DNA of 12,956 bases from the NCBI GenBank assembly GCA_008501785.1, contig QQUD01000898.1, forward strand, positions 1 to 12,956, given 5' to 3'. Positions 280-12,956 of the stretch are shown in pieces; position 1 is the stretch's first letter; every line of letters begins with the position of its first letter. A program made the translations under genes and the position numbers. The DNA is from Chloroflexota bacterium (GTDB lineage: Bacteria; Chloroflexota; Anaerolineae; Promineifilales; Promineifilaceae). The notes below the pieces were generated by a model that saw only the letters and a list, made by a program, of their open reading frames with translations, did not search any database and had not been told where the DNA came from.

Positions 280-1137
280 ATGAACAATCCAGACACCGTA
301 ATCGCATTCCAAGGAGAACCGGGGGCTTACTCAGAGCAAGCAATTCGGGATCATTTTGGCCCAGAAATATCGACGATGCCTTGTCGTGATTTTACGGAGT
401 TGTTTGCCACGCTGATAGACGGCCGTTCCACCCACGCCATGCTCCCGGTAGAAAACTCACTGGCCGGAACCGTGATGCCAGCCTACGATTTGCTGATCGA
501 TCATGATTTACGCGTGCAGGCCGAATTTATTTTGCGTGTTGAACATTGTTTAATGGCTCCAGCGGGTACCACTATTAGCGATATTAAGCGTGTGCAATCT
601 CATTATCAGGCGTTGGCTCAATGCGAACAAAATATTCGTCGCATGGGGTGGGATGCACTCGATTATTACGATACGGCAGGCGCGGCGCGTGATTTAGCCG
701 CCAGCCCAGAGCGAGGTGTAGCCGCCATTGCCAGCGAACTGGCTGCCCAAACCTACAATCTCGAAATCTTGCAGCGCAACTTTGAAGATTTAGACTACAA
801 CTACACGCGCTTTTTCGTGCTAGGACGTACCGATCCCCCTCGAAAAGAACCCAGCAAAACATCCATCGTTTTTACCACACGGCATATTCCTGGTGCGCTG
901 TATTTGGTCATGGGTGAATTAGCCAGCCGCAAAATTAACCTGACGAAAATTGAATCACGTCCGCGTCGAAATCGGCCGTGGCACTACTTGTTTTACGTAG
1001 ACATTGAAGGGCATGAGGATGATGATCACATCCAAGCGGCATTGCTCGGCATTCTCAAACAATCATCATTTTTGAAAGTGTTAGGCTCTTACCCAGCGGC
1101 AACGGCCGTGGGCATGATGGGGACTGTGGCTCAATAA
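280..1137 (+). CDS. pheA: Prephenate dehydratase (monofunctional, PDT-ACT)
   Basis: This cytoplasmic enzyme decarboxylates and dehydrates prephenate to phenylpyruvate in phenylalanine synthesis. The 285 residues match the usual monofunctional length. The catalytic PDT part shows QGEPGAYSEQA (11-21), PVENSLAGTV (56-65), DTAGAA (131-136) and the NYTRF signature (174-178), whose Thr176 is the family's catalytic threonine. A regulatory ACT domain follows from about 195, with GALY (205-208) and ESRP (225-228), the two motifs that bind phenylalanine in feedback inhibition. No chorismate mutase domain is fused. The ATG is preceded by an AAGGAAA-type Shine-Dalgarno at good spacing. One oddity is SHYQALAQC at 107-115, where the family normally has SHPQALAQC. 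The gene contains two copies of ACGGCCGT (419 and 1102). It converges on the DUF3592 gene with only 8 bases between, and no terminator is visible. Confidence 0.96.
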   Translation: MNNPDTVIAFQGEPGAYSEQAIRDHFGPEISTMPCRDFTELFATLIDGRSTHAMLPVENSLAGTVMPAYDLLIDHDLRVQAEFILRVEHCLMAPAGTTISDIKRVQSHYQALAQCEQNIRRMGWDALDYYDTAGAARDLAASPERGVAAIASELAAQTYNLEILQRNFEDLDYNYTRFFVLGRTDPPRKEPSKTSIVFTTRHIPGALYLVMGELASRKINLTKIESRPRRNRPWHYLFYVDIEGHEDDDHIQAALLGILKQSSFLKVLGSYPAATAVGMMGTVAQ

Positions 1138-1145
1138 AGTGATAG

Positions 1146-1643
1146 CTAGATACGGCGGCGTTTCAAGTTGTAGTAAATGGATGGAGAGAGAATAGACGGA
1201 ACGATAAACATACACATTCCTGCGAATATTAAAGAAAATGATGACAACGATAAGCCTGGTTCCAGGATGACTGTAGTGTGGTCATCTGGTTTGTAATATA
1301 CCACTACCTGTCGGCCAACAGGGTAACGGTCCACAAGCGCAGTTGCCTCATTAGAACTCATGTTTACATGCTGTGCCAATCTTATTTGGCGCGACTCGTA
1401 GACTTGACCATAAATCACATAAGAATATCGAATATCTGGGTATTTTTTGGGTAAATCAACGTTAGTTTCTCTTAAGGTAGATTGAACGATCTGGCCCTCA
1501 ACTGTAGGCCAGCTTGAACTCAAATATGAATGATATACAACGCTACTTCCCCAAACAAAAACCCCCATTCCAGCTAATAAATAGAACAATCCAAATAAAA
1601 ATATTTTTATTAAGTTGCTGGTAGATTGTGGATAAAAATGCAT
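1146..1643 (-). CDS. DUF3592-family membrane protein
   Basis: The 165-residue protein has two predicted membrane helices (about 11-33 and 134-156) around a soluble beta-rich segment. The segment carries the family's usual features: WPTVEGQIVQS (45-55), YSYVIYGQVYES (73-84) and YPVGRQVVVYYKPDDHTTVI followed by LEPG (107-130). The tail KRRRI is basic and probably cytoplasmic. No molecular function is established for the family. The Shine-Dalgarno at the ATG is weak (AAGAAG only 3 nt away), but a short upstream reading frame with a perfect AGGAGG ends 10 nt before it, so translation may be coupled. The gene looks AT-richer than pheA and typA, which may mean recent acquisition. Assignment is by motif recognition. 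Confidence 0.8.
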   Translation of the reverse strand: MHFYPQSTSNLIKIFLFGLFYLLAGMGVFVWGSSVVYHSYLSSSWPTVEGQIVQSTLRETNVDLPKKYPDIRYSYVIYGQVYESRQIRLAQHVNMSSNEATALVDRYPVGRQVVVYYKPDDHTTVILEPGLSLSSFSLIFAGMCMFIVPSILSPSIYYNLKRRRI

Positions 1644-1653
1644 AGACTTCTTG

Positions 1654-1725
1654 CTAACGATATGATGTGTTTTTCAAAGCACCATGGTACAGGTTAAAAT
1701 CGTCAACATAGATGTTTGCTTTCAA
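1654..1725 (-). pseudogene. 5' remnant of a NYN-domain (LabA/DUF88-like) gene, 21 codons
   Basis: Reading the minus strand from TTG at 1725 gives (M)KANIYVDDFNLYHGALKN, then TSYR and a TAG at 1654-1656. This closely resembles the N-terminus of NYN-domain proteins, which typically begin MxxNVYVDGFNLYYGALK and carry the first catalytic aspartate in this stretch. A perfect AGGAGG (1731-1736) sits 5 nt upstream of the TTG, so the start appears functional. After 21 codons the homology stops and the DUF3592 gene begins 10 nt on. The simplest reading is a gene whose 3' part was lost when the DUF3592 segment arrived. It may still be translated as a leader peptide that feeds ribosomes into the DUF3592 gene. 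The frame is too short for automated calling. Confidence 0.6.
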
Positions 1726-1748
1726 GAGAACCTCCTATAAACACAGAA

Positions 1749-1766
1749 GCCGTCCATTTGGACGGC
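1749..1766. other. GC-rich hairpin between typA and the NYN remnant
   Basis: GCCGTCC (1749-1755) and GGACGGC (1760-1766) form a perfect 7-bp stem with a 4-nt loop. On the minus strand it follows typA and is trailed by TTCTGTGTTTAT, a poor U-tract, so it is at best a weak typA terminator. It lies in a GC-rich block (to about 1797, including a run of seven G) that could fold further and lead into the AGGAGG of the NYN remnant. I could not match it to a riboswitch class. Confidence 0.45.
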
Positions 1767-1843
1767 CTCGCACCCTTTCGCCGAAGCTACCGGGGGGGAT
1801 ATGCAAAAACTATTCCACAAAAGCTAAACAAATGGGCATATTT

Positions 1844-3682
1844 TTATTTTGTGGCATTCTTTGCGCGTTTAATGTCGCGTTGGCGCGTGCTGTGGTCTAG
1901 GTTCTTTTTGCGAATGCGTAGTGCCGAAGGTGTTACCTCCAGCAGTTCATCATTGCTCAAATATTCAATTGATTCGTCTAAAGACATGCGGCGTGGTGAA
2001 GATAGGGCATCGGTGATGGCTTTGGGTACTGCGCGATGGCCGGTGAGGTTTTTCGTGCGGCAGACGTTCATAATTAGTTCTTCGTCTCGAATGTGCTGCC
2101 CCACGACCTGTCCAGAGTAAATATCTTCACCTGGAGCCACAAAAAATGTGCCACGTGATTGTAAATGTTGCAAGGCGTAGGCGCTGACGGGACCACTTTC
2201 GACTGCAACCAATGAACCCACTTCTTGCATTTCGATGTCGCCTTTGTATGATTCGTAGTCGTGGAAAAGTGTGTGGTAAATGCCGGTTCCTCGTGTGGCG
2301 GTCAAAAATGGTTGACGAAAACCCAAGATGCCACGTGTGGGAACCTGATATTCTGCATAAACTGTGCCATCATCACCATATTTGATATTGATGGTTTGCG
2401 CACGTCGCTTACCCAGCATTTCACTAACTGGTCCAAAGTAGTCGGTGTGAACTTCTACATAAACCGTTTCGATAGGTTCGCGTCGGCCTTCATCCGTTTC
2501 TTGGAAGATGACTTCGGGACGACTGACTGAGAATTCATACCCTTCGCGGCGCATGGTTTCGATGAGAATGGCTAGATGCAGTTCGCCACGTCCTGAGACT
2601 GTGAATTCACCCGCTTTGCCGGTCTCTTCGACTTTAAGCGCTACATTGCGTTCCAATTCTTTCATCAGCCGTTCGCGAATTTGGCGCGTGGTGACGTATT
2701 TGCCATCTCGCCCTGAAAATGGGCTGTCGTTGATTTTGAAGGCCATGCGGACGGTTGGCTCTTCAACAGTGATGGGTGGTAGTGGCTGTGGATTATCTGG
2801 ATCGGTTAAGGTGTCGCCAATGCCCACATTGGGAATCCCAGCAACGGCAACAATGTTCCCGGCGTTGACCATGTCGCGCTCTTGACGCTTCAGGTTGCTG
2901 AAGGTGTATAGTTTGGTGACTTTGCCAGGTATCGATTCACCTTTGGCGGTGACTTGCATGATGGGTTGTCCGGCTTTGATGGTTCCCTGCGTGAGTCGGC
3001 CCACAGCAATTTTGCCGACGTAGCTGCTGTATTCGAGGGTGGTGACGAGCAGCTGGGTGGGGCCTTCGAGATCGACAACGGGTGCTGGTAATCGTTCGAG
3101 AATGGTGTCGAATAACGGCCGTAAATTATCCTCCAACTCATCAGCAGAAGTACCTGCTTTTCCTTCTAAAGCCTTTGTGAAAATAACTGGGAAATCTGCT
3201 TGCTCCTCAGATGCACCCAAATCAATGAACAAATCGAAGGTGGCATCAACGGCAAAGTCTGGACGGGCAGCTGGGCGGTCGATCTTGTTGACAACCACAA
3301 CGACCTGGCATCCTTTTTGCAACGCCTGTCGCAGTACAAAGCGCGTTTGGGGCATTGGGCCTTCAACAGCATCAACGAGCAGCAGCACGCCGTCAACCAT
3401 ATTTACAATTCGTTCAACTTCGCCGCCAAAGTCAGCGTGACCGGGTGTATCGACGATATTAATGGTGACATCTTCGTACACAATGCTTGTGTTTTTTGCC
3501 AGAATTGTGATACCGCGTTCGCGTTCCAAATCGTTGGAGTCGAGAACGCGTTCGGCAACTGCCTGATTGGTGCGGAATACGTTGGTTTGTTGCAACATGC
3601 CGTCTACGAGTGTTGTTTTGCCGTGATCGACATGGGCAATAATGGCGATGTTTCGTACATCTGTCCGTGGTTTTAGAGCCAT
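1844..3682 (-). CDS. typA: Ribosome-associated translational GTPase TypA/BipA
   Basis: TypA/BipA is an EF-G-like GTPase that binds the 70S ribosome and supports 50S assembly, growth at low temperature and stress adaptation. The 612 residues match the family. The GTPase motifs are in order: G1 AHVDHGKT (16-23), G2 RGITI (56-60), G3 DTPGH (78-82) and G4 NKID (132-135). Elongation-factor domain II, the domain III/V segments ([32 protein letters not shown]) and the TypA-specific C-terminal domain ([20 protein letters not shown] onward) follow. The basic tail ([14 protein letters not shown]) is typical. The ATG at 3682 has an AGGA at 9 nt. Upstream are a consensus -35 element and several palindromes described separately. 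One ACGGCCGT lies inside the gene (3115). Confidence 0.97.
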
Positions 3683-3698
3683 AGTTTTTTATCCTAAG

Positions 3699-3728
3699 TC
3701 ACATATTGTGATAGATCACTTATTGTGA
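3699..3728 (-). promoter_or_regulatory. Two tandem operator-like sites in the typA leader
   Basis: On the plus strand TCACATATTGTGA (3699-3711) and TCACTTATTGTGA (3716-3728) differ by one base. Each has inverted arms around a 3-base spacer and their centres are 17 bp apart. The junction also gives GTGAT-AG-ATCAC. The half-site TGTGA recalls CRP/FNR-family sites, but the spacer (3 rather than 6) is not CRP-like. They lie 17-46 bases ahead of the typA start, downstream of the predicted promoter, a position suited to repression. The binding protein is unknown. Confidence 0.5.
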
Positions 3729-3739
3729 TAATCGTGGGT

Positions 3740-3776
3740 AACGATAAATCGTTTGCGAGCTGTTTTTAAATGTCAA
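3740..3776 (-). promoter_or_regulatory. Predicted typA promoter overlapping a 14-bp palindrome
   Basis: On the minus strand a perfect TTGACA -35 (3776-3771) is followed after 17 nt by AACGAT (3753-3748) as a weak -10. The -10 is one arm of the palindrome AACGAT-AA-ATCGTT (3740-3753), so a dimeric regulator could bind over it. This would start transcription near 3741, about 60 bases before the typA ATG. The -35 is convincing and the -10 is poor. Confidence 0.4.
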
Positions 3777-3807
3777 AAAAAGACCCGACGCATGTTTAGG
3801 TGTCGGG
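3775..3807 (-). terminator. Rho-independent terminator on the minus strand with no gene upstream
   Basis: Reading the minus strand, CCCGACAC and GCGTCGGG (3800-3807 with 3784-3791) pair as an 8-bp stem with one G-U, around an 8-nt loop. They are followed by TCTTTTTTT (3783-3775). This is a good intrinsic terminator pointing toward typA. It lies just upstream of the predicted typA promoter, and the 340 bases before it carry no convincing minus-strand gene. It may end an unannotated small RNA, act as an attenuator if typA has a more distal promoter, or block antisense transcription from the dehydrogenase side. Confidence 0.65.
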
Positions 3808-3833
3808 CGCTTGAGCGTTCGTTACTGTGTTTA

Positions 3834-3864
3834 TTGAACCAGTTCAATTGAAGTAAGTTCAATT
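3834..3864. repeat. Overlapping TTGAA/TTCAA palindromes in the typA-dehydrogenase gap
   Basis: TTGAACCAGTTCAA (3834-3847; arms TTGAAC/GTTCAA) overlaps AATTGAAGTAAGTTCAATT (3846-3864; 7-bp arms, 5-base spacer). The shared TTGAA half-site occurs in alternating orientation, as expected of paired dimer operators. It lies between the divergent genes and could serve either. The rest of the 464-bp gap (3683-4146) holds the elements listed separately and no gene that I can support. Confidence 0.4.
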
Positions 3865-4074
3865 TATTGATCAAACGGGAAGAATTGTATGCTCTACTGG
3901 AGAAGAAAGCAAAGATTGGTTGATTCTTTCTTGGGAAACGCTAATTCTCACTTTATGACAACCTTTTAGCATTGACTGACGGCGCTCTACGACAGATAAT
4001 CGGGAAATAGATCGTTATTCCATAAAAATTCGTTGGTCGATATTCAATATCAGCCAGCATGGGTAAGCATCATC

Positions 4075-4121
4075 CCGGAAATTTGATTAAAAAACCGACT
4101 TGATTTCAGATAAATTTCCGG
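4075..4121 (+). promoter_or_regulatory. 10-bp perfect inverted repeat ahead of the dehydrogenase
   Basis: CCGGAAATTT (4075-4084) is exactly complementary to AAATTTCCGG (4112-4121), with 27 bases between. The right arm ends 13 bases before the AAGGAG Shine-Dalgarno (4135-4140). It could be an operator pair about 37 bp centre to centre, or a leader hairpin that influences translation. It is not a terminator, as no T-run follows. Confidence 0.45.
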
Positions 4122-4146
4122 AAGATTATTTGCAAAGGAGTTTAGC

Positions 4147-5043
4147 ATGAGCGAGACGATTGGATTTATTGGTTTAGGCATTATGGGCAAGGGGATGGTT
4201 CAGAATTTACTGAATGCAGGCTTTAACCTGTATGTTTGGAATCGTTCACCGCAAAAGATGGATGCTTTGATTGAAGCAGGCGCTCATGCGGCCAGCAGTC
4301 CGGCTGATGTGGCGGCGCATTCGTCGATTGTGATTACCTGTGTGAGCGATACGCAGGATGTGGATGAGGTGATTCTGCGGGAAAATGGCGCGATTTATGG
4401 GTTGAATGAGGGTGATTTGGTGATTGATATGAGCACGATCAGCCCAGAGAAGACGCGCTATATTGCTGGCTGCCTGGAGCAAAAAGGGGTGCATATGCTG
4501 GATGCGCCAATTAGCGGTGGCAGTGAAGGTGCGGCCAGAGGCACACTCAGCATTATGGTTGGCGGTGATGCTGCTCAAGTAGAACGAGCCATGTCTGCTT
4601 TTCAGGCGATGGGCAGCAAGATTACACATGTGGGACCAATTGGTGCAGGGCAAACTGTAAAGTTAGTGAACCAGATTTTGGTCGTGGTGACGATGATGGG
4701 CGTTGGTGAAGCACTGCTGTTTGCGGAGGCGGGTGGCCTTGATTTGAATAAGACGCTGGAAGCGGTTTCGGCTGGCGCAGCGGGCAGCTGGATGTTGAGT
4801 AATCGAGGGCCACAGGTGGTGGAGCGTGATTGGCGGCCAGGCTTTACGATTGATTTGCAGCAGAAGGATTTGCGGCTGGTGCTGGAAGCAGCGGACCAGA
4901 TGGGTGTGCCGGTGTTGGGTACGAGCATGGTGTTTAATTTGTATCGCACGCTGCAAAAGCAGGGGTTGGGCGGTGACGGAAATCATGCGCTGGTGAAGGC
5001 GTTGGAGCATTTGGCGGATATGGAGGTGGGGGAGGAGAGCTAG
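4147..5043 (+). CDS. NAD(P)-dependent beta-hydroxyacid dehydrogenase (3-hydroxyisobutyrate / tartronate semialdehyde reductase family)
   Basis: A 298-residue cytoplasmic oxidoreductase of the beta-hydroxyacid dehydrogenase family, which interconverts beta-hydroxy acids and semialdehydes with NAD(H) or NADP(H). The Rossmann motif GFIGLGIMG is at 6-14. The substrate-binding signature DAPISGGSEGAARGTLSIMV is at 119-138. The catalytic lysine is K172 in GAGQTVKLVNQ, and FTIDLQQKD (233-241) supplies the second conserved lysine, K240. The residue after the second beta strand (WNRSP, 31-35) suggests NADP(H), as in GarR/GlxR-type enzymes, but the substrate cannot be decided among 3-hydroxyisobutyrate, tartronate semialdehyde and related compounds. 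An AAGGAG Shine-Dalgarno lies 6 nt before the ATG. It appears monocistronic: an inverted repeat precedes it and a strong terminator follows 33 bases after the stop. Confidence 0.9.
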   Translation: MSETIGFIGLGIMGKGMVQNLLNAGFNLYVWNRSPQKMDALIEAGAHAASSPADVAAHSSIVITCVSDTQDVDEVILRENGAIYGLNEGDLVIDMSTISPEKTRYIAGCLEQKGVHMLDAPISGGSEGAARGTLSIMVGGDAAQVERAMSAFQAMGSKITHVGPIGAGQTVKLVNQILVVVTMMGVGEALLFAEAGGLDLNKTLEAVSAGAAGSWMLSNRGPQVVERDWRPGFTIDLQQKDLRLVLEAADQMGVPVLGTSMVFNLYRTLQKQGLGGDGNHALVKALEHLADMEVGEES

Positions 5044-5076
5044 AGGATAGAGCGAGAGATAGAGGAAGAGGGTGGG

Positions 5077-5109
5077 AAACGGCCGTATTGTGGAATACGG
5101 CCGTTTTTT
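5077..5109 (+). terminator. Strong intrinsic terminator after the dehydrogenase
   Basis: AAACGGCCGTATT (5077-5089) pairs perfectly over 13 bp with AATACGGCCGTTT (5094-5106) around a GTGG loop, followed by more T (5107-5109). Each arm contains one copy of the dispersed octamer ACGGCCGT. The nearly A-flanked arms could also stop minus-strand transcription leaving the pseudouridine synthase gene. The bases from here to 5181 hold nothing else convincing. Confidence 0.85.
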
Positions 5110-5993
5110 ATGCAACAATCTTATACAACAATGGTTGATCTGGCAAAGCTGCCGGAGTTGGATGATTTAGGTGGTTTTGTTTTAACATTCGGCGGATTGG
5201 AGGAATGACTCTATATCATCGGGCATAGGAGCCTCGATCAAACAGGTTTCACCGGTGTGGGGGTGTTGGAAGCTGGTGGCGGCGCAATGAAGTGCCTGCC
5301 TTTCTAGTAACAAACGGCCGTTTTCCTCCCTTATCCTCTCATCATCAATACCATACCGTTTATCTCCCACAATTGGATGTCCCAGTGCTTTTGTGTGTAC
5401 GCGCAGTTGGTGTGTCCGTCCTGTTTTTGGCGTTAATTGCAATAATGAAATCTCTTCTCCATGATGAATCTTGCAGGTATGCAAGGTTTCGTAGTGGGTA
5501 ACGGCCGTTTTCCCCCTCACCGCATCAATCCCAAAATGATTCCCTTTGCTCGGTGCATCAACTTTGCCAATGGGCAGATCAATCGTGCCAGACGCGGGGC
5601 TGGGCGTACCATGCACAATTGCCAGATAGGTTTTGGTAACGTCGCCGATGGCGAATTGGCGGCTCATGTGGCGCAGCGTCTCTTTATCTTTGGCGAGCAT
5701 AATCACGCCAGACGTTTCTTTGTCGAGCCGGTTGACCAGGTTCACATGGGGCAGTGGTGGATTGTGGTAGGTGCGCAGTTGGTAGATGAGGTTTTCGCGC
5801 ACGTAGCGCCCTTTGGCGTGGACGAGCAGGGTGCCCGGTTTGTTGATGCCTAGCAGCCAGTCGTCTTCGTAGAGGACGGTGTATTCGAGTTGTGGCGGCT
5901 TGTCGGGGTCTGGCATGTGGTAGGTGACGATGTCGCCTTGGGTGACGATGGTGTTGGTGGTGCAGGGGAGGGTGTTGTGGGTTAAACGGCCGT
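5079..5993. repeat. Densest cluster of the dispersed palindrome ACGGCCGT
   Basis: Five copies start at 5079, 5097, 5314, 5501 and 5986. The whole window has 14 exact copies, the others starting at 419, 1102, 3115, 7897, 8904, 9885, 11406, 12376 and 12944. Twelve lie in coding regions and two form the terminator stem. The flanks are biased: AAACGGCCGTTTTCC-like contexts recur at 5312, 5984 and 7895, and G-rich sequence often precedes. With equal base use about 0.2 copies would be expected. Near misses (TCGGCCGT at 972, GCGGCCGT at 7459) are fewer than exact copies, so the octamer itself appears to be favoured. Confidence 0.9.
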
Positions 5994-6105
5994 TTTCCAC
6001 CCGCTCCCGCCATTCATCTACCGACAAATACGTAAATCGCGCCGCCAGATACTCTATAATTGGCACTTGTTTGAACTGCGCCGGTACTTTTGATGAAACA
6101 ACCAT
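5182..6105 (-). CDS. RluA-family pseudouridine synthase
   Basis: This enzyme isomerises specific uridines in rRNA or tRNA to pseudouridine. The 307 residues begin with an S4-like RNA-binding segment (about 14-60). The RluA catalytic domain follows: GINKP (86-90), NRLDKETSG (125-133) with catalytic Asp128, and GRTHQLRVH (229-237). NRLD replaces the more common HRLD, which occurs in family members. The target base cannot be inferred. The Shine-Dalgarno at the ATG is weak. Three copies of ACGGCCGT lie in the gene. Two encode the same tripeptide NGR (38-40 and 262-264) in variable positions, as if the octamer were tolerated in loops. It is the last gene of the minus-strand series, 95 bases after the lipoprotein gene. 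Confidence 0.92.
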   Translation of the reverse strand: MVVSSKVPAQFKQVPIIEYLAARFTYLSVDEWRERVENGRLTHNTLPCTTNTIVTQGDIVTYHMPDPDKPPQLEYTVLYEDDWLLGINKPGTLLVHAKGRYVRENLIYQLRTYHNPPLPHVNLVNRLDKETSGVIMLAKDKETLRHMSRQFAIGDVTKTYLAIVHGTPSPASGTIDLPIGKVDAPSKGNHFGIDAVRGKTAVTHYETLHTCKIHHGEEISLLQLTPKTGRTHQLRVHTKALGHPIVGDKRYGIDDERIREENGRLLLERQALHCAATSFQHPHTGETCLIEAPMPDDIESFLQSAEC

Positions 6106-6120
6106 GCTTCTATTGTAAGC

Positions 6121-6141
6121 TGTCAGGTGTCAGGTGTCAGG
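6121..6141. repeat. Three tandem copies of TGTCAGG
   Basis: The heptamer TGTCAGG is repeated exactly three times in the gap between the pseudouridine synthase and lipoprotein genes, 16 bases upstream of the synthase start. Heptameric short tandem repeats of this kind are known in intergenic DNA of several bacteria. Copy number probably varies between strains. The remainder of the 95-base gap shows no terminator. Confidence 0.7.
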
Positions 6142-6200
6142 TAAAAGCTAAATGCTAATACATGATACTATGGATTTTGAAAATTGGTTTTGTATATGAA

Positions 6201-6794
6201 TTATTCTAACGGGCTAAAACTAGCAACAATGTCGTCAAAATCTCTATGATAGCTTGTGAAATATTCCTTATCGACAATCATAGTAATCATAATCATGTCT
6301 TGTTCGCGAGCGATAAGGATTTCCTCAACCTTAAGAAAATTACTCGATAAGGTATATTGACGCCTCATAATTGGGTAACCATTAATTTCATCTTCTTCCA
6401 ACAAAATCTCTTCGAAACCATATCCCTTGGTAGGACCAGCACGAATCCAATCCAGGTATTCATCACTCCAATCAATGACATCCTGTAAATCCGGACTTTC
6501 CATTGCTCTAGATTCAATCCGAATTGCAAATGTAGAAGGATCATGTCGGAATATTGCAGGACGGCTGATGATTAATCGAGTATCCTTATCGCCTTTGTAA
6601 CCGTTTTCATCAAATACTTGAGTAACCCATTTCGTTGGATAATCTACGGAAAAATTGAATTGCTCATTCGTAACCGTTTTCCACTCGTGGTCGGTATCTT
6701 CAAGGTATTTTCCACTGCATGAAGCTATCAACATCGCTAAAACGAATCCTACAACGCTCCAAACCCTGAGATGAAAATCTGTTTTCTTGGGCAT
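6201..6794 (-). CDS. Putative lipoprotein, PsbP/DUF1795-like fold
   Basis: The 197-residue product starts with a lipoprotein signal: basic n-region PKKTDFHLR, a hydrophobic stretch and the lipobox IASC, so Cys26 would be lipidated and the protein anchored outside the cytoplasmic membrane. The mature part shows NFSVDYPTKW near its start and ends FDDIVASFSPLE. This layout is typical of PsbP/DUF1795-like proteins (a YPxxW strand first and a 'SF' strand last), but no function follows from it. I chose the ATG at 6794. A GTG at 6824 would add ten residues before the signal peptide and overlap the preceding gene. The ATG lies 11 nt after the stop of the thioredoxin-like gene, suggesting joint translation. 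The region looks AT-richer than the neighbouring enzymes. Confidence 0.75.
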   Translation of the reverse strand: MPKKTDFHLRVWSVVGFVLAMLIASCSGKYLEDTDHEWKTVTNEQFNFSVDYPTKWVTQVFDENGYKGDKDTRLIISRPAIFRHDPSTFAIRIESRAMESPDLQDVIDWSDEYLDWIRAGPTKGYGFEEILLEEDEINGYPIMRRQYTLSSNFLKVEEILIAREQDMIMITMIVDKEYFTSYHRDFDDIVASFSPLE

Positions 6795-6805
6795 AATGAA
6801 TCCAG

Positions 6806-7207
6806 TTATTCTTCCAGACGCCACATCTCAAGGAACTCAACGAATTTGACTTCATCATAGTTTTTGCCTATTTCCAGTTCAAGCATGTCTTGCGTATGGA
6901 GGGATGTGCCATCTGCATCCAATACGAAAATGTGCGGATAGCCGGGGATTTCTGGGTATTGTGTGAGGAACTTTTTGTTTTCGTTTTCTTTGCTGACGTT
7001 GACTTTGACGATGATGTAGTTTTTGGTGAGTAGATTGGTGACGGCTTCGGTGTTGTGCATGAAAGTCGCCAGGATTTCACACCAGATGCACCAATCGCCG
7101 CCAGCGATAAGCAAAATACGCTTGTTTTCGGCTTGTGCTTTGGTTACAGCAGCTGCAACATCAGCAAAAGGGTCACGTTCGGGATCGTATTTAGAAGATA
7201 TGTACAT
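6806..7207 (-). CDS. Thioredoxin-like protein with a WCIWC active site
   Basis: The 133-residue product has a thioredoxin fold with GGDWCIWCE, placing the redox pair at Cys40 and Cys43, and the cis-proline loop in GYPHIFVLDADG. The N-terminus (YDPERDPFADVAAAVTKAQA) is typical of the thioredoxin_7/DUF255-like group, in which a long helix precedes the active-site strand. No signal peptide is visible, so it should be cytoplasmic and may be a thiol-disulfide reductase or a chaperone-like protein. I chose the ATG at 7207, which has AGGTAG about 8 nt upstream. A TTG at 7234 would add nine residues with no better ribosome site. It is closely followed by the lipoprotein gene. Confidence 0.85.
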   Translation of the reverse strand: MYISSKYDPERDPFADVAAAVTKAQAENKRILLIAGGDWCIWCEILATFMHNTEAVTNLLTKNYIIVKVNVSKENENKKFLTQYPEIPGYPHIFVLDADGTSLHTQDMLELEIGKNYDEVKFVEFLEMWRLEE

Positions 7208-7283
7208 AGATTTATCTACCTGTGTGCAAACCAATCATTAACCATTCACCAATTCACAAATTAATTATTTTCTTCATTCTTCA

Positions 7284-8480
7284 CTATGTTTGCATCGATT
7301 GCACAACATCAATTAATCGTGCCGTTGGTTTTTCATCAGGCGTGTAATTTGGGTCGCGCCAGCGGGTTAATTTTATTATCCAAGGGGCAATCGTAAAGCC
7401 GAAGCGCACAAAGCGCGGGAATTTTGGCATCAGGTAGGCAAATTTGGCGAGGCGGGTGCGGCCGTCAAGATGTTTAAATAGGGGATCGTTACGCACGATG
7501 TCGCCATAGCTGGCAAAGCTGAAATCTTGATGCGTAAACGCATCGTTGATGGCTTTCGTTGCCACTTCGCCATAGCCCAACGCAAACGAAATGCCTTCAC
7601 CAAACAGCGGGTCGGCTCCGGCCGCATCGCCTACTAAAATGACGCGTGGCTGTGAGAATTTGGCTTTGGTGCTCCACCAACGGATCGGATGCCCTTTGAG
7701 TTTGTAGTCATCGAGATTGCGGTTTCGGGTTTGTAGTGAATCGCGCAGGGTTTGTTTGAGGTTGGCTTTGGGTAGGTCGGGGCGGGCGCGGCTGTCGAAG
7801 AGGCCGCGATTCATGAATGGCTGACCCTGGATGACGCTGGGGAAGTCCCAGTAATATCCTTGTAAGCCGTTGTCGGTCATGGGGGTGAAGTCGAAAACGG
7901 CCGTTTTCTCTCGAAATTCAGGCGTGGTTGCTGCATTTTCAGGCGTTAATATTTCTAATAGACGAGCCACTTGCGTATTGTCTTGCCATTTCAACGCACG
8001 GCGCACGTAGCTTTTCGATCCATCTGCTCCTACCAAAACTTTTGCATGAAAGGTGCGCTTTTCGGTGACAACCTCTACAAAATCATCGTGGGGTGTAATT
8101 GTTTTTACCGCTTCGCCTTGATGGACAGTCACACCAAGTTGTGTACACGTTTTCACTAGCCAATGGTCAAATTCATCACGGCGCACAATGCGAAAAACAG
8201 GGTTGCCAAAAAACGAGTAGCCTTTGTCTTTATAAACGAGGCGGACTTCTCTCACATCGAAGCTGTTTGGTTCAATTTCCAGCCCCAATCGTGCCAAAAT
8301 ATTTTGCCCCAGATGCGTAATGCCGCCGCCGCACAGCTTTTCACGTGGATGAATGGCTTTGTCTACCATCACAATCCGGTTTGCCCACGCTGGATTGCTT
8401 TTAATTAAATGTAATGCGGTTGATGTTCCCGATGGTCCTGTCCCCACAATGAGAATGTCGATCTTCTCAGCCTCTGCCAT
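7284..8480 (-). CDS. FAD-dependent oxidoreductase, geranylgeranyl reductase-like
   Basis: The 398-residue flavoprotein belongs to the PHBH-type fold. It has the dinucleotide-binding GTGPSG (13-18), KLCGGGI (48-54), VGADGS (150-155) and the FAD-binding GDAAGADPLFGEGI (284-297). KxCGGG near the first motif and PxxGEGI near the second mark the geranylgeranyl reductase family, whose members saturate isoprenoid double bonds of lipids, quinones or chlorophyll side chains. The substrate here is unknown. Related halogenases and monooxygenases share the fold, but the CGGG motif favours a reductase. The C-terminus (about 350-375) has a hydrophobic amphipathic stretch suggesting membrane contact. I chose the ATG at 8480, which has GGAGG 9 nt upstream. 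A TTG at 8489 would abut that site directly. It contains ACGGCCGT at 7897 and follows the amidase gene. Confidence 0.85.
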   Translation of the reverse strand: MAEAEKIDILIVGTGPSGTSTALHLIKSNPAWANRIVMVDKAIHPREKLCGGGITHLGQNILARLGLEIEPNSFDVREVRLVYKDKGYSFFGNPVFRIVRRDEFDHWLVKTCTQLGVTVHQGEAVKTITPHDDFVEVVTEKRTFHAKVLVGADGSKSYVRRALKWQDNTQVARLLEILTPENAATTPEFREKTAVFDFTPMTDNGLQGYYWDFPSVIQGQPFMNRGLFDSRARPDLPKANLKQTLRDSLQTRNRNLDDYKLKGHPIRWWSTKAKFSQPRVILVGDAAGADPLFGEGISFALGYGEVATKAINDAFTHQDFSFASYGDIVRNDPLFKHLDGRTRLAKFAYLMPKFPRFVRFGFTIAPWIIKLTRWRDPNYTPDEKPTARLIDVVQSMQT

Positions 8481-8501
8481 TTTCTGCAACCTCCGAATTT
8501 G

Positions 8502-8579
8502 GTAATCGGTAGTCGGTAAACGATAATCGGTAAGTTAAGCTTTCTCATTGCCGATTATCGTTTACTGTTCACCGATTAC
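8502..8579. repeat. Long imperfect inverted repeat built from AATCGGT words
   Basis: GTAAACGATAATCGG (8516-8530) is exactly complementary to CCGATTATCGTTTAC (8551-8565). An outer pair, GTAATCGGT (8502-8510) with ACCGATTAC (8571-8579), extends the stem across a 5x5 internal loop. The hairpin loop is 20 nt. It fills most of the gap between the amidase and FAD-enzyme genes and includes the amidase stop codon. No T-run follows on the minus strand, so it is not a classical terminator. It may be a REP/MITE-like element, an mRNA-processing hairpin, or an array of the iterated word GGTAATCGGTA. Confidence 0.75.
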
Positions 8580-10846
8580 TTCTTAATCATCGGCAGCATT
8601 ATAGCATGAGGCAGGTCTATTGCCTCTGCTGTACTCAGGTCAGGCTCAGTTTTTATTTCTATATTTCCGGCATGGTCAGTAGCGATGATGTGGAATTCGT
8701 AGGTTTGTTCAGGGTCAGGTGGGGTGAAGGTCGCGGATGTGTTCACTGTTGTCGTCAGCCAACTGGTCCAGGTGGTTTCACTGATGGTACGATAAGCAAC
8801 GTTGTAACCAGCGATGCCGGAGAGTTCATCCGTGCCGGTCCAGACAAGGTTGTATACATCGGTGACATTTTTTGTGTAGATGAGTTGGGCGGTGGAGGTG
8901 GGAACGGCCGTGTCTACCCCAAACTTGCTCACCGACGTGACCAACGAATCCTGTGTGCCTGTTAGTACAACCGAAGTTTGCCAATATAATGTGACATTTT
9001 CAGTAAACATATGCGTATAACTCACCACATTACCTGGAATCGTTTCTTCAAGTACTAAATTAGTTAAGTCGGTGTCGGTGGCAACTTTTAACGTAGTTGT
9101 TTGGGGGGGGCTACTGTTGCTTAATTGCCAGACAAATTCCACATCAGGGTTGTTTGTCCAGCCTTCTTCTGTGGGTGAACTTGCTTTTAGTTCAGGTGAC
9201 ACTTCAATCAAGCGCATGTCATCAAACCAGACCCCTTTCCCCTCGTCGGTCGTGGTCAAATTTGTGAGACGGACCGTTGTGCTATCGTCTGCGTGCAAAT
9301 AATAAACACCAAGGTCCATCCACACGCCTAATTGATCGTTGTGGCTGAGAATAACTGTGTCCGTGCCATTGGCGTGATTGATTGTGTAGGTAGCACCATC
9401 GGTTTCTCCTCGGCCTGTGTAGCAATAAGGTGCGCGCACTTCAATGCGATAATATCCCGCTTCTGTGATGGGTGGCTGCCATTTACCCCAACGAATGGGT
9501 GAGTCTGGGTTTGTGGTAGACCATGCGTAAAAAGAATGCCCATTTGTGCCACATTCATTGGGGCCTTCGTACCAGCTTGTGTTGCTGCGCGTAAAGTAGG
9601 GGCCAGCCTCGTCAACAATGAGATATTCGTTGGTTAGCCCAATATTGGCAGCGATGCGGTCACGAATTTCAGGTAATAAAGCATGTGCCTGATCACCGGG
9701 GCATTCTGTTGTGCCATAGGCATCGCGGTGTCCCATTAAGTGTGGCAATCCCCATCCTACATTGGGCAGTGTGTTGCTGGCATCATAGACATCAATGTCA
9801 CGCTGGTCTGCTTTCCAAGAAAGTAGGTTAACCAGTGAATCGACCATTGGTTCTGGCGGTTTGATGCCGGGCAAGGCGTGGTCAACGGCCGTAAACGTAC
9901 CCAACAGTGAAACGCCCATGCTGCCTAAATTAGCACCAGATGCGTGCGTTCCTGCCACGTCTAAATTCTCGTAATCTTCATTCAGATGGCCTTCGTAAAT
10001 CAGCCCATCGACATCAATCAAGTAGTTATAGCCAATGTCGCCCCACTCATTTGTATAGGTGTGATAGGACCAGATGGCACGAACGGTGGCGGCCCAATTT
10101 GTACCCCCATTGGCAGAAACTGTATGGTGAATGACCATGTGTGTTGCTGGTGAATATTCTAATCCATCGGTGTAGTCGCAATCATCATAGAAGCACCACA
10201 CTTCGCGGCTAATAATTGTGGGTCGTGGATGACCGGTTGTGAGATAGGAGGTGTTGTTTTGATTTGCATCTAAAGCTTGTTGTTGGGCGACAAGCTCTGC
10301 CGTTGTGGGACCAGAGGTGGCGTCGATAAAAGTAAATACCATCTCTTCCAAAACAGGCGCGGCGAGGGAGATGTTGCGTCCCATGCTTACTGAAAATTGG
10401 ACATGTGAATGGCGTTTGTCAATTTCAGGTACAGAAATCATGTTTCCGGAGATTAAATTGCTTCCTGCAACGGTTAAGTCGTGGTCTTCTTGCATCACAA
10501 ACCAGTCACTCCAGGGGCCGTTTGAGGTACGGGTGCGTACTTGAATGGTGATGCTGGTACCTTTGGGCTGTGTTGCATCCCATTGGGGAACAACGACATT
10601 AAAGGGTAAGGACGCTTCAATGTCTGGTGAGGTATAAACGGCGGTTAATTCATTATCGGCAATGGTTAATCCATTGGTTGAAACGGCGAACCCTGTGCCG
10701 CTGCCAGATGCGAAATCTGTGCCAGTAAAATGTATTTTGTCGTGAATGGGTTCTTCATACCCTTGAGCGGGCTTGACATGCGAGGAAAATCCGATGGCTG
10801 TCAATAATCCTATGAAGATGACTAGGGTCCAAGCTTTTAACTGCAT
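8576..10846 (-). CDS. Secreted PGRP/amidase_2 protein with Golvesin-like and Ig-like domains
   Basis: The 756-residue secreted protein probably binds or cleaves the amide bond between N-acetylmuramate and L-alanine in peptidoglycan. A signal peptide (MQLKAWTLVIFIGLLTAIGF) is followed by a beta-rich domain (about 40-175). The PGRP/amidase domain (about 208-400) has its zinc ligands in place: H240 of IHHTVSANGG, H373 of GHRDAYG and C382 of ECPGD. Y273 and T380 sit where the family keeps catalytic residues. A Golvesin/Xly-type binding domain (about 406-548; SWYEGPN, AGYYRIEVRAPY, GVWMDLGVYYL) and two Ig/FnIII-like repeats (about 555-645 and 650-740) follow. The C-terminus ends LPHAIMLPMIKK. I chose the ATG at 10846 because GGGAG lies 5 nt upstream. 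The ATG at 10858 has no ribosome site and would break up the signal peptide's n-region. Two ACGGCCGT copies lie inside. Confidence 0.88.
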   Translation of the reverse strand: MQLKAWTLVIFIGLLTAIGFSSHVKPAQGYEEPIHDKIHFTGTDFASGSGTGFAVSTNGLTIADNELTAVYTSPDIEASLPFNVVVPQWDATQPKGTSITIQVRTRTSNGPWSDWFVMQEDHDLTVAGSNLISGNMISVPEIDKRHSHVQFSVSMGRNISLAAPVLEEMVFTFIDATSGPTTAELVAQQQALDANQNNTSYLTTGHPRPTIISREVWCFYDDCDYTDGLEYSPATHMVIHHTVSANGGTNWAATVRAIWSYHTYTNEWGDIGYNYLIDVDGLIYEGHLNEDYENLDVAGTHASGANLGSMGVSLLGTFTAVDHALPGIKPPEPMVDSLVNLLSWKADQRDIDVYDASNTLPNVGWGLPHLMGHRDAYGTTECPGDQAHALLPEIRDRIAANIGLTNEYLIVDEAGPYFTRSNTSWYEGPNECGTNGHSFYAWSTTNPDSPIRWGKWQPPITEAGYYRIEVRAPYCYTGRGETDGATYTINHANGTDTVILSHNDQLGVWMDLGVYYLHADDSTTVRLTNLTTTDEGKGVWFDDMRLIEVSPELKASSPTEEGWTNNPDVEFVWQLSNSSPPQTTTLKVATDTDLTNLVLEETIPGNVVSYTHMFTENVTLYWQTSVVLTGTQDSLVTSVSKFGVDTAVPTSTAQLIYTKNVTDVYNLVWTGTDELSGIAGYNVAYRTISETTWTSWLTTTVNTSATFTPPDPEQTYEFHIIATDHAGNIEIKTEPDLSTAEAIDLPHAIMLPMIKK

Positions 10847-10872
10847 GTTTGCTCCCATATTTGTTTTTTTGA

Positions 10873-10944
10873 AACTATACAGGTCTTCGACGACTCGACT
10901 GAGATCGCCGAAGTCAAGCTCAGACCGCGACGCATTGTATAGTT
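10873..10944 (+). terminator. Large hairpin with downstream T-run, upstream of the amidase
   Basis: AACTATACA (10873-10881) pairs exactly with TGTATAGTT (10936-10944). GGTCT (10882-10886) then pairs with AGACC (10922-10926) across a one-sided bulge. The plus strand continues GCTTTTTTT (10945-10953), so it resembles an intrinsic terminator pointing right, although no plus-strand gene precedes it. On the minus strand it would lie in the amidase leader. The core (10898-10914) contains a motif repeated at 12847. It may instead be a small mobile or REP-like palindrome inserted here. Confidence 0.45.
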
Positions 10945-10953
10945 GCTTTTTTT

Positions 10954-11194
10954 AATTTGTTTTGTGTGCTCCAATATGATCTTTCAGTCCTTTCCAAAGT
11001 TGGTACATGATAGCAAGTGTGTTGGTGGTCAATGGTGTAAAACCTGTGAATTTTTTCGTGATATTTGGTAAATTTTGTGAAATGATGACCAGGGTCCTAT
11101 TCTTCTTTCTTATTGAACAGGATTACTTTTTTATGTTATTCTGGCAGCGAGTTTTTATTTATGTATGATTAATTTTATAAAGGTTTGATTTGTT
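10954..11194 (+). promoter_or_regulatory. AT-rich gap with a possible promoter for the GT87 gene
   Basis: These 241 bases separate the divergent amidase and GT87-like genes and hold no gene that I can support. TTGAAC (11113-11118), a 17-base spacer and TTATTC (11136-11141) make a weak promoter candidate reading into the GT87 gene, about 50 bases before its start. The Shine-Dalgarno AAAGG (11179-11183) is 11 nt from the ATG, slightly far. Confidence 0.3.
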
Positions 11195-12457
11195 ATGTCG
11201 TTTGTTCGCAGAGATTCGGTAAGAATAGGGATGGGGGGTCTGTTTTTATTTGTTTTTATGGTCGTGGCGACCTATTACACATTTGTGATACACGCCCCTG
11301 GTGCGAATGATTTTTTCCCACGGTGGAAGGGTGCGCAGGTGTTTTGGTTGGAGGGTATTGACCCTTATTCAGATGAGGCGACGGAGGCGATACAGAGGGT
11401 CATTTACGGCCGTTTAGCACAACCAACCGAAGATCAAGTCTTGTTTGTGTATCCGTTTTACACAGTCTTTTTATTACTGCCGTTGGTGGGGCTTCCTTAC
11501 CTGTGGGTGCAAGCCATTTGGCTGGTGACGCTTATGTTTTCCCTGTTTGTGGGGACGATTTTATGTTTGCGTCTTGTTTTGTGGCGACCATCGCTGTGGT
11601 TAATGAGTGTGATCATTTTGTGGTCACTATTACTCTATAATGGCACACGCACCGTTATTTTAGGACAATTTGCAGGATTGATATTTTTGTGGCTGGTGGG
11701 GAGCCTTTTAGCCTTATACAATGGCAAAGATGTGAGTGCTGCTGCCTTATTGGCACTAACAACAATCAAGCCGCAAATGAGCTTTTTGATTATTCCTGCC
11801 TTGTTAATATGGGGAATTGGGCAGCGGCGATGGCGATTTTTGTGGGCGTTTGTGATAAGTATGGGAATATTAGCAGGCATATCATTTTTACTGTCGCCTC
11901 GCTGGTTGTTGAGTTTTGTTGAACAAGTGATGGCTTACCCTGGGTATACGGTTGAAGGGTCTCCCATTTACATTGTGACCCGAATTTATTGGTCCCAACT
12001 TGGGCGCACTGTAGAAGTTTTATTGTTTGTGAGCCTGGTTGGATATTTGCTATACCATTGGTGGCAATTGCCTCGTTTGCAAATTGGTTCTTCTGAGTTT
12101 TTAATGGCGATTTGTGTGACGTTGGTTGTTACAAATTTATTGGTAAGCCGCACGGCAACGACGAATTATGTTGTGCTGTATTTGCCGATTTTGTGGACAT
12201 TGAAGCAGATTGCCATGAAGTGGCAATGGGGCGAATGGGCTGCTGCTGTTGCGCTAGTGCTTTCGGCTGTGGGGATGTGGTGGCTGTTTTTGGGCACGAT
12301 TTCTGGGTCTGCGGAAAGTGCTGTCATGTATTTGCCGTTACCGTTTGGGTTGTTGCTGATTTTGTTGGTGGCGAGACGGCCGTTACTCAACAACCCCTTA
12401 CAAATTAATTTATCTCGTGTGGAGGGGAATGCCGATTATGAAGAAATATCAAACTAG
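11195..12457 (+). CDS. Polytopic membrane glycosyltransferase-like protein (GT87/DUF2029 family)
   Basis: The 420-residue protein is mostly hydrophobic, with roughly ten membrane helices. It looks like a GT-C glycosyltransferase of the GT87/DUF2029 group, which uses polyprenyl-phosphate sugars on the outer face of the membrane in making mannolipids and cell-envelope glycans. Family-like marks are an aspartate in the first extracytoplasmic loop (ND at 38-39, followed by FFPRWKGAQVF), ILGQFAGL with GQ at 157-158, and TIKPQ (190-194) at the start of a helix. The donor and acceptor sugars cannot be told. It contains two ACGGCCGT copies (11406 and 12376). The next gene starts inside its last 20 bases, so the two are translated together. 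Confidence 0.8.
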   Translation: MSFVRRDSVRIGMGGLFLFVFMVVATYYTFVIHAPGANDFFPRWKGAQVFWLEGIDPYSDEATEAIQRVIYGRLAQPTEDQVLFVYPFYTVFLLLPLVGLPYLWVQAIWLVTLMFSLFVGTILCLRLVLWRPSLWLMSVIILWSLLLYNGTRTVILGQFAGLIFLWLVGSLLALYNGKDVSAAALLALTTIKPQMSFLIIPALLIWGIGQRRWRFLWAFVISMGILAGISFLLSPRWLLSFVEQVMAYPGYTVEGSPIYIVTRIYWSQLGRTVEVLLFVSLVGYLLYHWWQLPRLQIGSSEFLMAICVTLVVTNLLVSRTATTNYVVLYLPILWTLKQIAMKWQWGEWAAAVALVLSAVGMWWLFLGTISGSAESAVMYLPLPFGLLLILLVARRPLLNNPLQINLSRVEGNADYEEISN

Positions 12458-12956
12458 CATTTGGTTGCGTTGGGTATTCATTGCGCTGTTTGTGGCGTGG
12501 TTTTTCTTTGCGATTGCCAGTTATTTTGTGGTGTATAAGCCGTTTAGTCCGCTGCTGGTGGCGCAGTTGGCAGAGTTGAAGTGGTTGCCATTGGGAAATG
12601 ATTGGTCTGTGCTGGGGCAGGCTGTAGTGGATGTGCTGGTTGCGTTGTGGTTGGGGGTGATGGCGCTGGGGGTTGGGTTGTGGATTTGGGATGGGATTTT
12701 TTTATTACAAAGGAACAAAGAAGCAAAGGAAGAAAAGGGAAGAGAAGAGGGATTAGAGAGAGTTTTGTTTGGATTTGGGATGGGGTTTGGGGTTGTGGGG
12801 TTGATTGTGTTGTTTGTTGGTTTGTTGGGGTGGTTGAATACGGCCACTTCGACTGTGCTCAGTACAGGCGTTTTAACCACAATCCCCATCATTTTAACTG
12901 CTGTTGGGCTGCCGAAATTGGTGCGCTTGCGGGTGGGGTGGAAACGGCCGTCTCGT
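12438..12956 (+). CDS. Membrane protein of unknown function, cut by the right edge
   Basis: From ATG at 12438 the frame is open for 173 codons to the end of the window. GGAGGGG (12421-12427) lies 10 nt upstream, and the start overlaps the end of the GT87-like gene by 20 bases. The product begins MKKYQTSIWLRWVFIALFVA and has about four hydrophobic helices. A highly charged, probably cytoplasmic loop (QRNKEAKEEKGREEGLERV) separates the second and third. I do not recognise the family. Overlap with a GT-C type enzyme suggests a role in the same envelope-glycan pathway. It carries an ACTTCG...CTCAGT motif (12847-12863) and an ACGGCCGT near the edge (12944). Confidence 0.8.
   Translation, partial: MKKYQTSIWLRWVFIALFVAWFFFAIASYFVVYKPFSPLLVAQLAELKWLPLGNDWSVLGQAVVDVLVALWLGVMALGVGLWIWDGIFLLQRNKEAKEEKGREEGLERVLFGFGMGFGVVGLIVLFVGLLGWLNTATSTVLSTGVLTTIPIILTAVGLPKLVRLRVGWKRPSR
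12847..12863 (+). repeat. ACTTCG-N-CTCAGT motif, second copy in the window
   Basis: The stretch around 12846-12863 reads ACTTCGACTGTGCTCAGT. On the minus strand at 10914-10898 the sequence is ACTTCGGCGATCTCAGT, which shares ACTTCG and CTCAGT with a spacer one base shorter. One copy is inside a membrane-protein gene and the other is in an intergenic hairpin. Short repeats with this TTCG...CTCAGT pattern are seen dispersed in many bacterial genomes. Confidence 0.45.

Follow-up and report, generated by a model that had tools for sequence, protein, structure and literature searches.

A highly iterated palindrome with a CGGCCG core in an order of Chloroflexota, comparable to HIP1 of cyanobacteria

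Why does a single eight-base palindrome, ACGGCCGT, recur throughout a short piece of a Chloroflexota genome? The piece in question (contig QQUD01000898.1, 12,956 nucleotides, hereafter called the window) led us to count the motif in related genomes and phages, and we find that it is a highly iterated palindrome (HIP) like HIP1 of the cyanobacteria, built on another core. It is abundant genome-wide, and among the sampled members of the class high abundance of ACGGCCGT is restricted to one order. The sites are conserved in place, degenerate codon positions included, the outer base comes in several dialects, and the motif is present in some tailed phages. With a probability of roughly 0.6, the order carries a HIP with a constant CGGCCG core and a lineage-specific outer base, which is read by a trans-acting factor and kept by selection.

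A preliminary description, made from the sequence of the window alone, listed 14 copies with their start positions, all of which are exact. Its estimate of about 0.2 copies expected agrees with dinucleotide shuffling (mean 0.18, maximum 2; none of 200 shuffles reaches 14). ACGGCCGT is the most frequent 8-mer of the window and has four one-mismatch neighbours there (starts 972, 7458, 10638 and 11476). CGGCCG, with 2.69 expected, is found 17 times. Eleven copies fall within six of the ten open reading frames (ORFs) taken as genes, with the reading frames split 5, 4 and 2; the copies at 5079, 5097 and 12944 lie outside these ten ORFs. The sites are as follows (being its own reverse complement, the palindrome reads the same on both strands):

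419..426: ACGGCCGT copy 1, prephenate dehydratase ORF; not conserved in the relative G416
1102..1109: ACGGCCGT copy 2, prephenate dehydratase ORF
3115..3122: ACGGCCGT copy 3, TypA/BipA gene; CGGCCG in the same codon-alignment column of 22 other genomes
5079..5086: ACGGCCGT copy 4, intergenic, forming the left arm of a hairpin
5097..5104: ACGGCCGT copy 5, pairing with copy 4 as the right hairpin arm
5314..5321: ACGGCCGT copy 6, pseudouridine synthase ORF; within an exact AAACGGCCGTTTTCC from 5312
5501..5508: ACGGCCGT copy 7, pseudouridine synthase ORF
5986..5993: ACGGCCGT copy 8, pseudouridine synthase ORF; within an exact AAACGGCCGTTTTCC from 5984
7897..7904: ACGGCCGT copy 9, FAD oxidoreductase ORF
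8904..8911: ACGGCCGT copy 10, amidase ORF; kept in place in G416
9885..9892: ACGGCCGT copy 11, amidase ORF; not conserved in G416
11406..11413: ACGGCCGT copy 12, GT87 ORF; kept in place in G416
12376..12383: ACGGCCGT copy 13, GT87 ORF
12944..12951: ACGGCCGT copy 14, outside the ten ORFs
973..978: CGGCCG core with outer-base variant, TCGGCCGT at 972
7459..7464: CGGCCG core with outer-base variant, GCGGCCGT at 7458
7619..7624: CGGCCG core, both outer bases unlike ACGGCCGT

A GC-rich palindrome that sits chiefly in genes might simply follow from codon usage or base composition, or belong to an inserted repeat family. However, synonymous codon shuffling of the ten window ORFs (500 shuffles) leaves a mean of 0.75 and a maximum of 3 copies where 11 are observed, and the same procedure yields 4.74 against 45 in locus L086. 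The palindromes GGGCCC, AGGCCT and CGCGCG stay under expectation in all nine sequence sets compared. The dinucleotide and codon shuffles thus rule out base composition and codon usage, the latter being the explanation that the preliminary description had named as fatal to its proposal. Repeat insertion is ruled out as well, because the sites, dispersed through genes, share no flanking element. Their flanks show only weak base preferences: T is favoured adjoining the site (49%), followed by C at positions 3 and 4 (46% and 52%). These biases make the longer string AAACGGCCGTTTTCC, to which several copies had been said to extend, a weak extended preference: it is found exactly only twice, while seven more matches have one or two mismatches (some being the opposite strand of one site). 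Taken together, this family of explanations has practically no chance of being right.

The over-representation extends to whole genomes, at approximately one copy per kb. In 22 related genomes counted whole we find 2,984 to 14,867 copies of ACGGCCGT against 40 to 459 of the reversed control, or about 990 to 2,100 per Mb (genome sizes are rounded and the completeness of the assemblies is not given). For instance, G001 has 6,888 copies in 4.6 Mb (control 40) and G375 has 14,867 in 7.7 Mb (control 185). Among 396 members of the class, an even draw from a larger group, 22 reach at least 1,000 copies, seven have 400 to 660 and all others have fewer. All 22 high-count genomes fall within a single order of 56 genomes (handles matched by eye), which may be the Promineifilales of GTDB. 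Here 52 genomes have more CGGCCG than its reversed control GCCGGC, by a wide margin in G167 (21,019 versus 132) and G197 (13,814 versus 51) and by a narrow one in a few such as G304 (16,185 versus 14,460). The exceptions are G410 (447 versus 7,315), G002 (3,159 versus 8,497), G409 and G321. Avoidance of the restriction type does not describe this pattern, since the core is in excess here and depleted in other Anaerolineae.

The nearest TypA relatives of the window are Chloroflexota with at most 78% identity. The closest match, G416, shows 92% over residues 1-125 only, and was omitted from the TypA tree because the gene is partial there. In the maximum-likelihood tree of 52 rows the window is one of 16 rows that form a supported group (eight ACGGCCGT, seven without preference, one weak). 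This group is nested in a clade of 33 rows containing all 23 ACGGCCGT rows, seven without preference, two weak ones and the GCGGCCGC genome; the dialect labels on the rows were assigned by us. It should be read as a gene tree rather than a species tree, as for part of the order TypA is closer to Anaerolineales. Of 16 genomes behind the TypA loci, nine have 2,982 to 12,866 copies and seven have 0 to 516. Within the order the motif has apparently been lost in G002 (in the tree) and in G410 (outside it). The TypA gene of G010 (L220) contains a single in-frame TAG, perhaps an assembly error.

What stays constant is CGGCCG, and the outer base depends on the lineage, giving ACGGCCGT, TCGGCCGA, GCGGCCGC or no preference. 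The majority of the genomes show ACGGCCGT in local sequence (a few loci are unreadable). TCGGCCGA accounts for 81 of 114 CGGCCG in G407 and 100 of 125 in G110, and GCGGCCGC for 57 of 63 in G197; for G405, G406, G411, G412 and G416 the dialect was taken from local sequence rather than from whole-genome octamer counts. The dialects can be seen side by side in one TypA alignment column, where CGGCCG is present in 23 sequences (18 ACGGCCGT, three GCGGCCGC in G007, G130 and G197, and two mixed). A second TypA column has CGGCCG in 27 sequences. In G001, G003, G004 and G009 we also observe an approximately 2.3-fold enrichment of TGGCCA (144 versus 62.5), with GGGCCC and AGGCCT depleted.

In 520 kb (26 ACGGCCGT genomes plus the window) there are 777 copies of ACGGCCGT, whereas a first-order model predicts 10.2 and a second-order model 18.2, so that the enrichment is about 76-fold or 43-fold. 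One-off variants are concentrated at the outer bases of the core (111 versus 20.4, 134 versus 34.8 and 46 versus 29.2 expected), with TCGGCCGT enriched 5.5-fold and GCGGCCGT 3.9-fold. The nine core one-offs each lie at 0.46 to 1.35 of expectation and sum to 134 observed against 158 expected. We compared these with 59 control loci from Anaerolineae and other Chloroflexota (L017-L080 minus five; the retained L075 comes from G409, a member of the order), in which CGGCCG is depleted (191 versus 460) and core one-offs number 212 versus 269. Core near-misses are therefore not depleted in the order (0.85 of expectation versus 0.79 in the controls), and because they stay near expectation, as in the controls, they are not visibly being converted into the motif. 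Vsr-like mismatch conversion is unlikely for the same type of reason, as the C-to-T core one-offs are not depleted (ATGGCCGT 1.18, ACAGCCGT 1.35, ACGACCGT 1.31; the Vsr family was not searched). The 744 gaps between sites (mean 607, median 404) are distributed approximately at random, apart from a mild shortage below 50 bases.

An active mechanism of spreading or maintenance had been proposed for the motif, and comparison of orthologous DNA separates the two. We aligned two 20-kb stretches of G375, containing 80 sites, with four relatives of 84-88% identity, and used octamers matched for CpG number and G+C as controls (the comparisons are not independent, all having G375 as reference). Of 252 site comparisons 228 are identical, six differ at one base, four at two and 14 at three or more; for 3,423 control comparisons the figures are 1,306, 1,222, 563 and 332. 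A single-step change is thus about 15-fold rarer in sites than in control octamers. In the more distant G358, 33 of 51 sites are identical against 58 of 665 controls. In the first stretch, four-fold degenerate third bases within sites are nearly invariant (68/68, 79/81, 68/69, 71/71 and 58/67 identical), while the same codons elsewhere have 54-79% identity at that base. Retention is also visible at greater depth: of 660 ordered pairs of TypA sites across ACGGCCGT genomes 348 are identical (3,986 of 30,827 for controls), and CGGCCG in the no-preference genomes is kept in 70 of 170 comparisons at depth (controls 32 of 542) and in 136 of 172 in close clades (controls 700 of 1,246). In the outgroups 0 of 6 are kept, against 218 of 1,251 controls. 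Between the window and G416 (65% identity) two of four alignable sites are kept, and 4 of 83 controls. Clear turnover of sites shows only at larger distance. Maintenance is therefore strongly supported; spreading by copying is not supported, since the sites have no long shared flanks and, at 84-88% identity, nearly all of the site comparisons are identical in place.

Strong retention could also arise without any effect on fitness, if a bound protein shielded the site from mutation and made it a near-absorbing state. The 15-fold rarity of single-step changes and the near-expected number of core near-misses fit this idea. Nonetheless, a 15-fold lower loss falls short of a 43- to 76-fold enrichment unless gain is raised too, and the density of 3.5 copies per kb in some phages (see below) is left unexplained, which makes this explanation improbable. 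Lower loss alone as the cause of the abundance was dropped, as more sites gave a reduction of 15-fold and not of about 90-fold.

A further explanation invokes methylation. Here a CGGCCG methyltransferase, coupled to the strand choice of mismatch repair, would favour bases that complete the octamer, which would then be a by-product. Such a model has been proposed for HIP1, and HIP1 and its alternates accompany methyltransferases (PMC4390886). The enriched outer one-offs match HIP1 in this respect, and as 45 of the 56 genomes of the order have MutS domain I, the model is not refuted through lost mismatch repair. We searched three methyltransferase families in the same 56 genomes and tallied them for 27 ACGGCCGT genomes (the 26 above and G183). 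The C5 family PF00145 has any match in 14 of the 27; at E<=1e-20, PF01555 is found in 21 and PF02086, the nearest to universal, in 24. Elhai (PMC4390886) assigns both the GATC and the GGCC enzymes of cyanobacteria to PF02086. None of PF00145, PF01555 and PF02086 is present in all palindrome-rich genomes, so the suggested link to methylation is not borne out for these families. Still, each of the 27 genomes matches at least one of them at E<=1e-20, so different enzymes per lineage are possible. PF02086 is also found in G410, G002, G409 and G321, which lack CGGCCG enrichment, whereas G219, with 25,568 CGGCCG, has no match to the three families (the completeness of its assembly is uncertain). The 30 PF02086 proteins examined are of at least two unlike kinds and mostly have the motifs NGL(C/Y/F)R and FNVP(F/M)G, which are those of GATC enzymes. 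A single orthologous methyltransferase was not found in these three families, the only ones searched, with orthology judged by eye on the 30 PF02086 proteins. Moreover, the GmeC rule predicts, in our reading, GCGGCCGC or no outer preference rather than A or T, and core near-misses, measured against expectation, are no scarcer here than in other Anaerolineae. All in all we regard methylation-coupled repair as rather unlikely.

The motif is not confined to chromosomes. A scan of IMG/VR for two ACGGCCGT copies at most 30 bases apart returned at least 120 stretches. Of the 120 loci listed, 34 have at least 0.8 copies per kb, some being short pieces in which two copies suffice. Thirteen records, those behind the 14 densest of 83 loci, were counted whole and contain 1.1 to 3.5 copies per kb, with 0 to 7 control matches each. 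Four of them have virion genes (G423, G422, G424 and G428, with portal, terminase or head protease matches) and densities of 1.2 to 3.5 per kb; in the 65.5-kb record G423 we count 227 copies, along with matches to families of portal, terminase and endolysin proteins. The content of G421 appears more mixed (partition, anti-repressor, transglycosylase and FtsK-like proteins). When the other dialects were scanned for, at least 120, at least 120 and 41 stretches came up, of which only a few fragments stand out. Judged by their sequence, three putative viral fragments are written in the T or G dialect: TCGGCCGA makes up 9 of 10 CGGCCG in L731, the corresponding share is 11 of 13 in L535, and GCGGCCGC makes up 13 of 15 in L653. 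Two of the phage records, G428 (L568-L569) and G433 (L570-L572), look closely related, with matching ORF lengths (462, 594, 439, 297, 630, 960, 832, 280 and 330 residues). Motif-bearing phage records also encode methyltransferase-like proteins with PF02086 or PF01555 (L559 9604-10473, L567 3830-5488, L570 17613-18278).

Copies 4 and 5 of the window, 18 bases apart, form a hairpin (5068-5115, -27.8 kcal/mol, z -8.2) between convergent genes with a T run on its 3' side, which suggests a terminator-like use of the two copies. G416 has a similar pair (L237, 827-854), and inward pairing is extended by three bases in only two of 23 listed close pairs, namely this one and that of G416. DNA uptake sequences of Neisseriaceae occur about once per kb, and inverted pairs of them serve as terminators; they are non-palindromic and tied to a pilus receptor (ComP). 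The hairpin brings up biased uptake or recombination of such a kind, with palindromic sites and dialects. Lineage dialects are indeed known for uptake sequences (PMC3630211). The palindromic form is however foreign to uptake sequences, and some phages are denser than chromosomes, which would not be expected from uptake of kin DNA. We consider this origin very improbable.

Selection via a DNA-reading factor is the reading we favour. In this reading a trans-acting factor of the cell, probably a symmetric DNA-binding protein or complex, would read the core and serve in chromosome structure, repair or self-recognition. The majority of sites would be retained because loss of a site lowers fitness; when the outer-base preference of the factor shifts, the sites would shift along, and phages would bear the form of their host as their DNA meets the same factor. 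Several points weigh against it. No candidate for the recognising factor was found in this analysis, and simultaneous selection on thousands of eight-base sites is demanding. G418, G419, G364, G219, G167 and others have CGGCCG with at most a slight preference for the outer base. The first stretch retains 144 of 153 and the second a smaller share, 84 of 99; 14 of the 252 comparisons differ at three or more bases, and between the window and G416 two of four alignable sites differ while three G416 sites are absent from the window. Retention alone may also not suffice, given a 15-fold lower rate of change against a 43- to 76-fold enrichment. Finally, the motif itself served to find the phages, so that phages of these hosts lacking it would have been missed, and the phage hosts are inferred.

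A more specific version is possible, and we offer it tentatively: the CGGCCG-core sites may be a self-signal written in dialects, by which a host machine tells resident from foreign DNA, and phages would escape by carrying the host dialect as densely as the host does or more so (tailed phages of the A dialect reach the 3.5 copies per kb given above, and the putative viral fragments have the T and G dialects). If so, this would be a sequence-based and possibly methylation-free form of self-marking across whole chromosomes. The combination of features makes the question testable by comparison, through genes that co-vary with dialect and through the matching of phage and host dialects. The dialects could further be of use in matching uncultivated phages with their hosts.

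The window has an ordinary gene content: prephenate dehydratase, DUF3592, TypA, a 3-hydroxyisobutyrate-dehydrogenase-like protein, pseudouridine synthase, a PsbP-like and a thioredoxin-like protein, FAD oxidoreductase, an amidase with a golvesin domain, and GT87. An intergenic inverted repeat at 8502-8579 has 32-base arms that are 84% complementary and consist of short repeated words. Elsewhere, dispersed repeats of approximately 50-70 bases occur in L086 (7218-7272) and L573 (3287-3340, 13550-13606 and 16763-16833), with many matches in G249, G269, G405 and G406 among the matches listed.

How does the palindrome compare with known systems? A literature search, judged from its listings, returned no work on ACGGCCGT in Chloroflexota, and none of the works containing the string concerns genome palindromes by title. 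Known Chi sites are non-palindromic and oriented, whereas ACGGCCGT is self-complementary and therefore cannot be oriented. With the uptake sequences of Neisseriaceae it shares the density of about one per kb, the lineage dialects and the paired copies in a terminator-like hairpin; it differs in being palindromic and dense in some phages. The preliminary description had allowed only HIP1 as a parallel, which is too narrow: PMC4390886 mentions alternate HIPs in cyanobacteria, and lists Chi sites (over-represented short sequences read by a host DNA machine) and DNA uptake sequences as other classes of iterated oligomers, with dialects of the latter in Neisseriaceae (PMC3630211). Its term HIP1-like is nevertheless apt. 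According to PMC4390886, HIP1 (GCGATCGC) was first described in 1995, its significance was still little known in 2015, most cyanobacteria other than group C1 have it at 300-2,700 per Mb, and its one-off variants are most frequent at the outer bases. The Chloroflexota motif is likewise a palindromic octamer with a hexamer core, lies dispersed in genes, has one-offs peaking at the outer bases and falls within this range of density, and core-sharing derivative octamers occur in both groups (TCGATCGA in cyanobacteria, TCGGCCGA here). It is not HIP1 itself: the phylum is another one, and the HIP1 core CGATCG is absent from the window (0 versus 2.3 expected). Unlike for HIP1, no consistent methyltransferase was found among the three families searched in the order, and presence in phages is recorded for the Chloroflexota palindrome. 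Summarizing, we describe a second case of a HIP, in another phylum, with a different core, switches of the outer base, apparent losses and motif-bearing phages.

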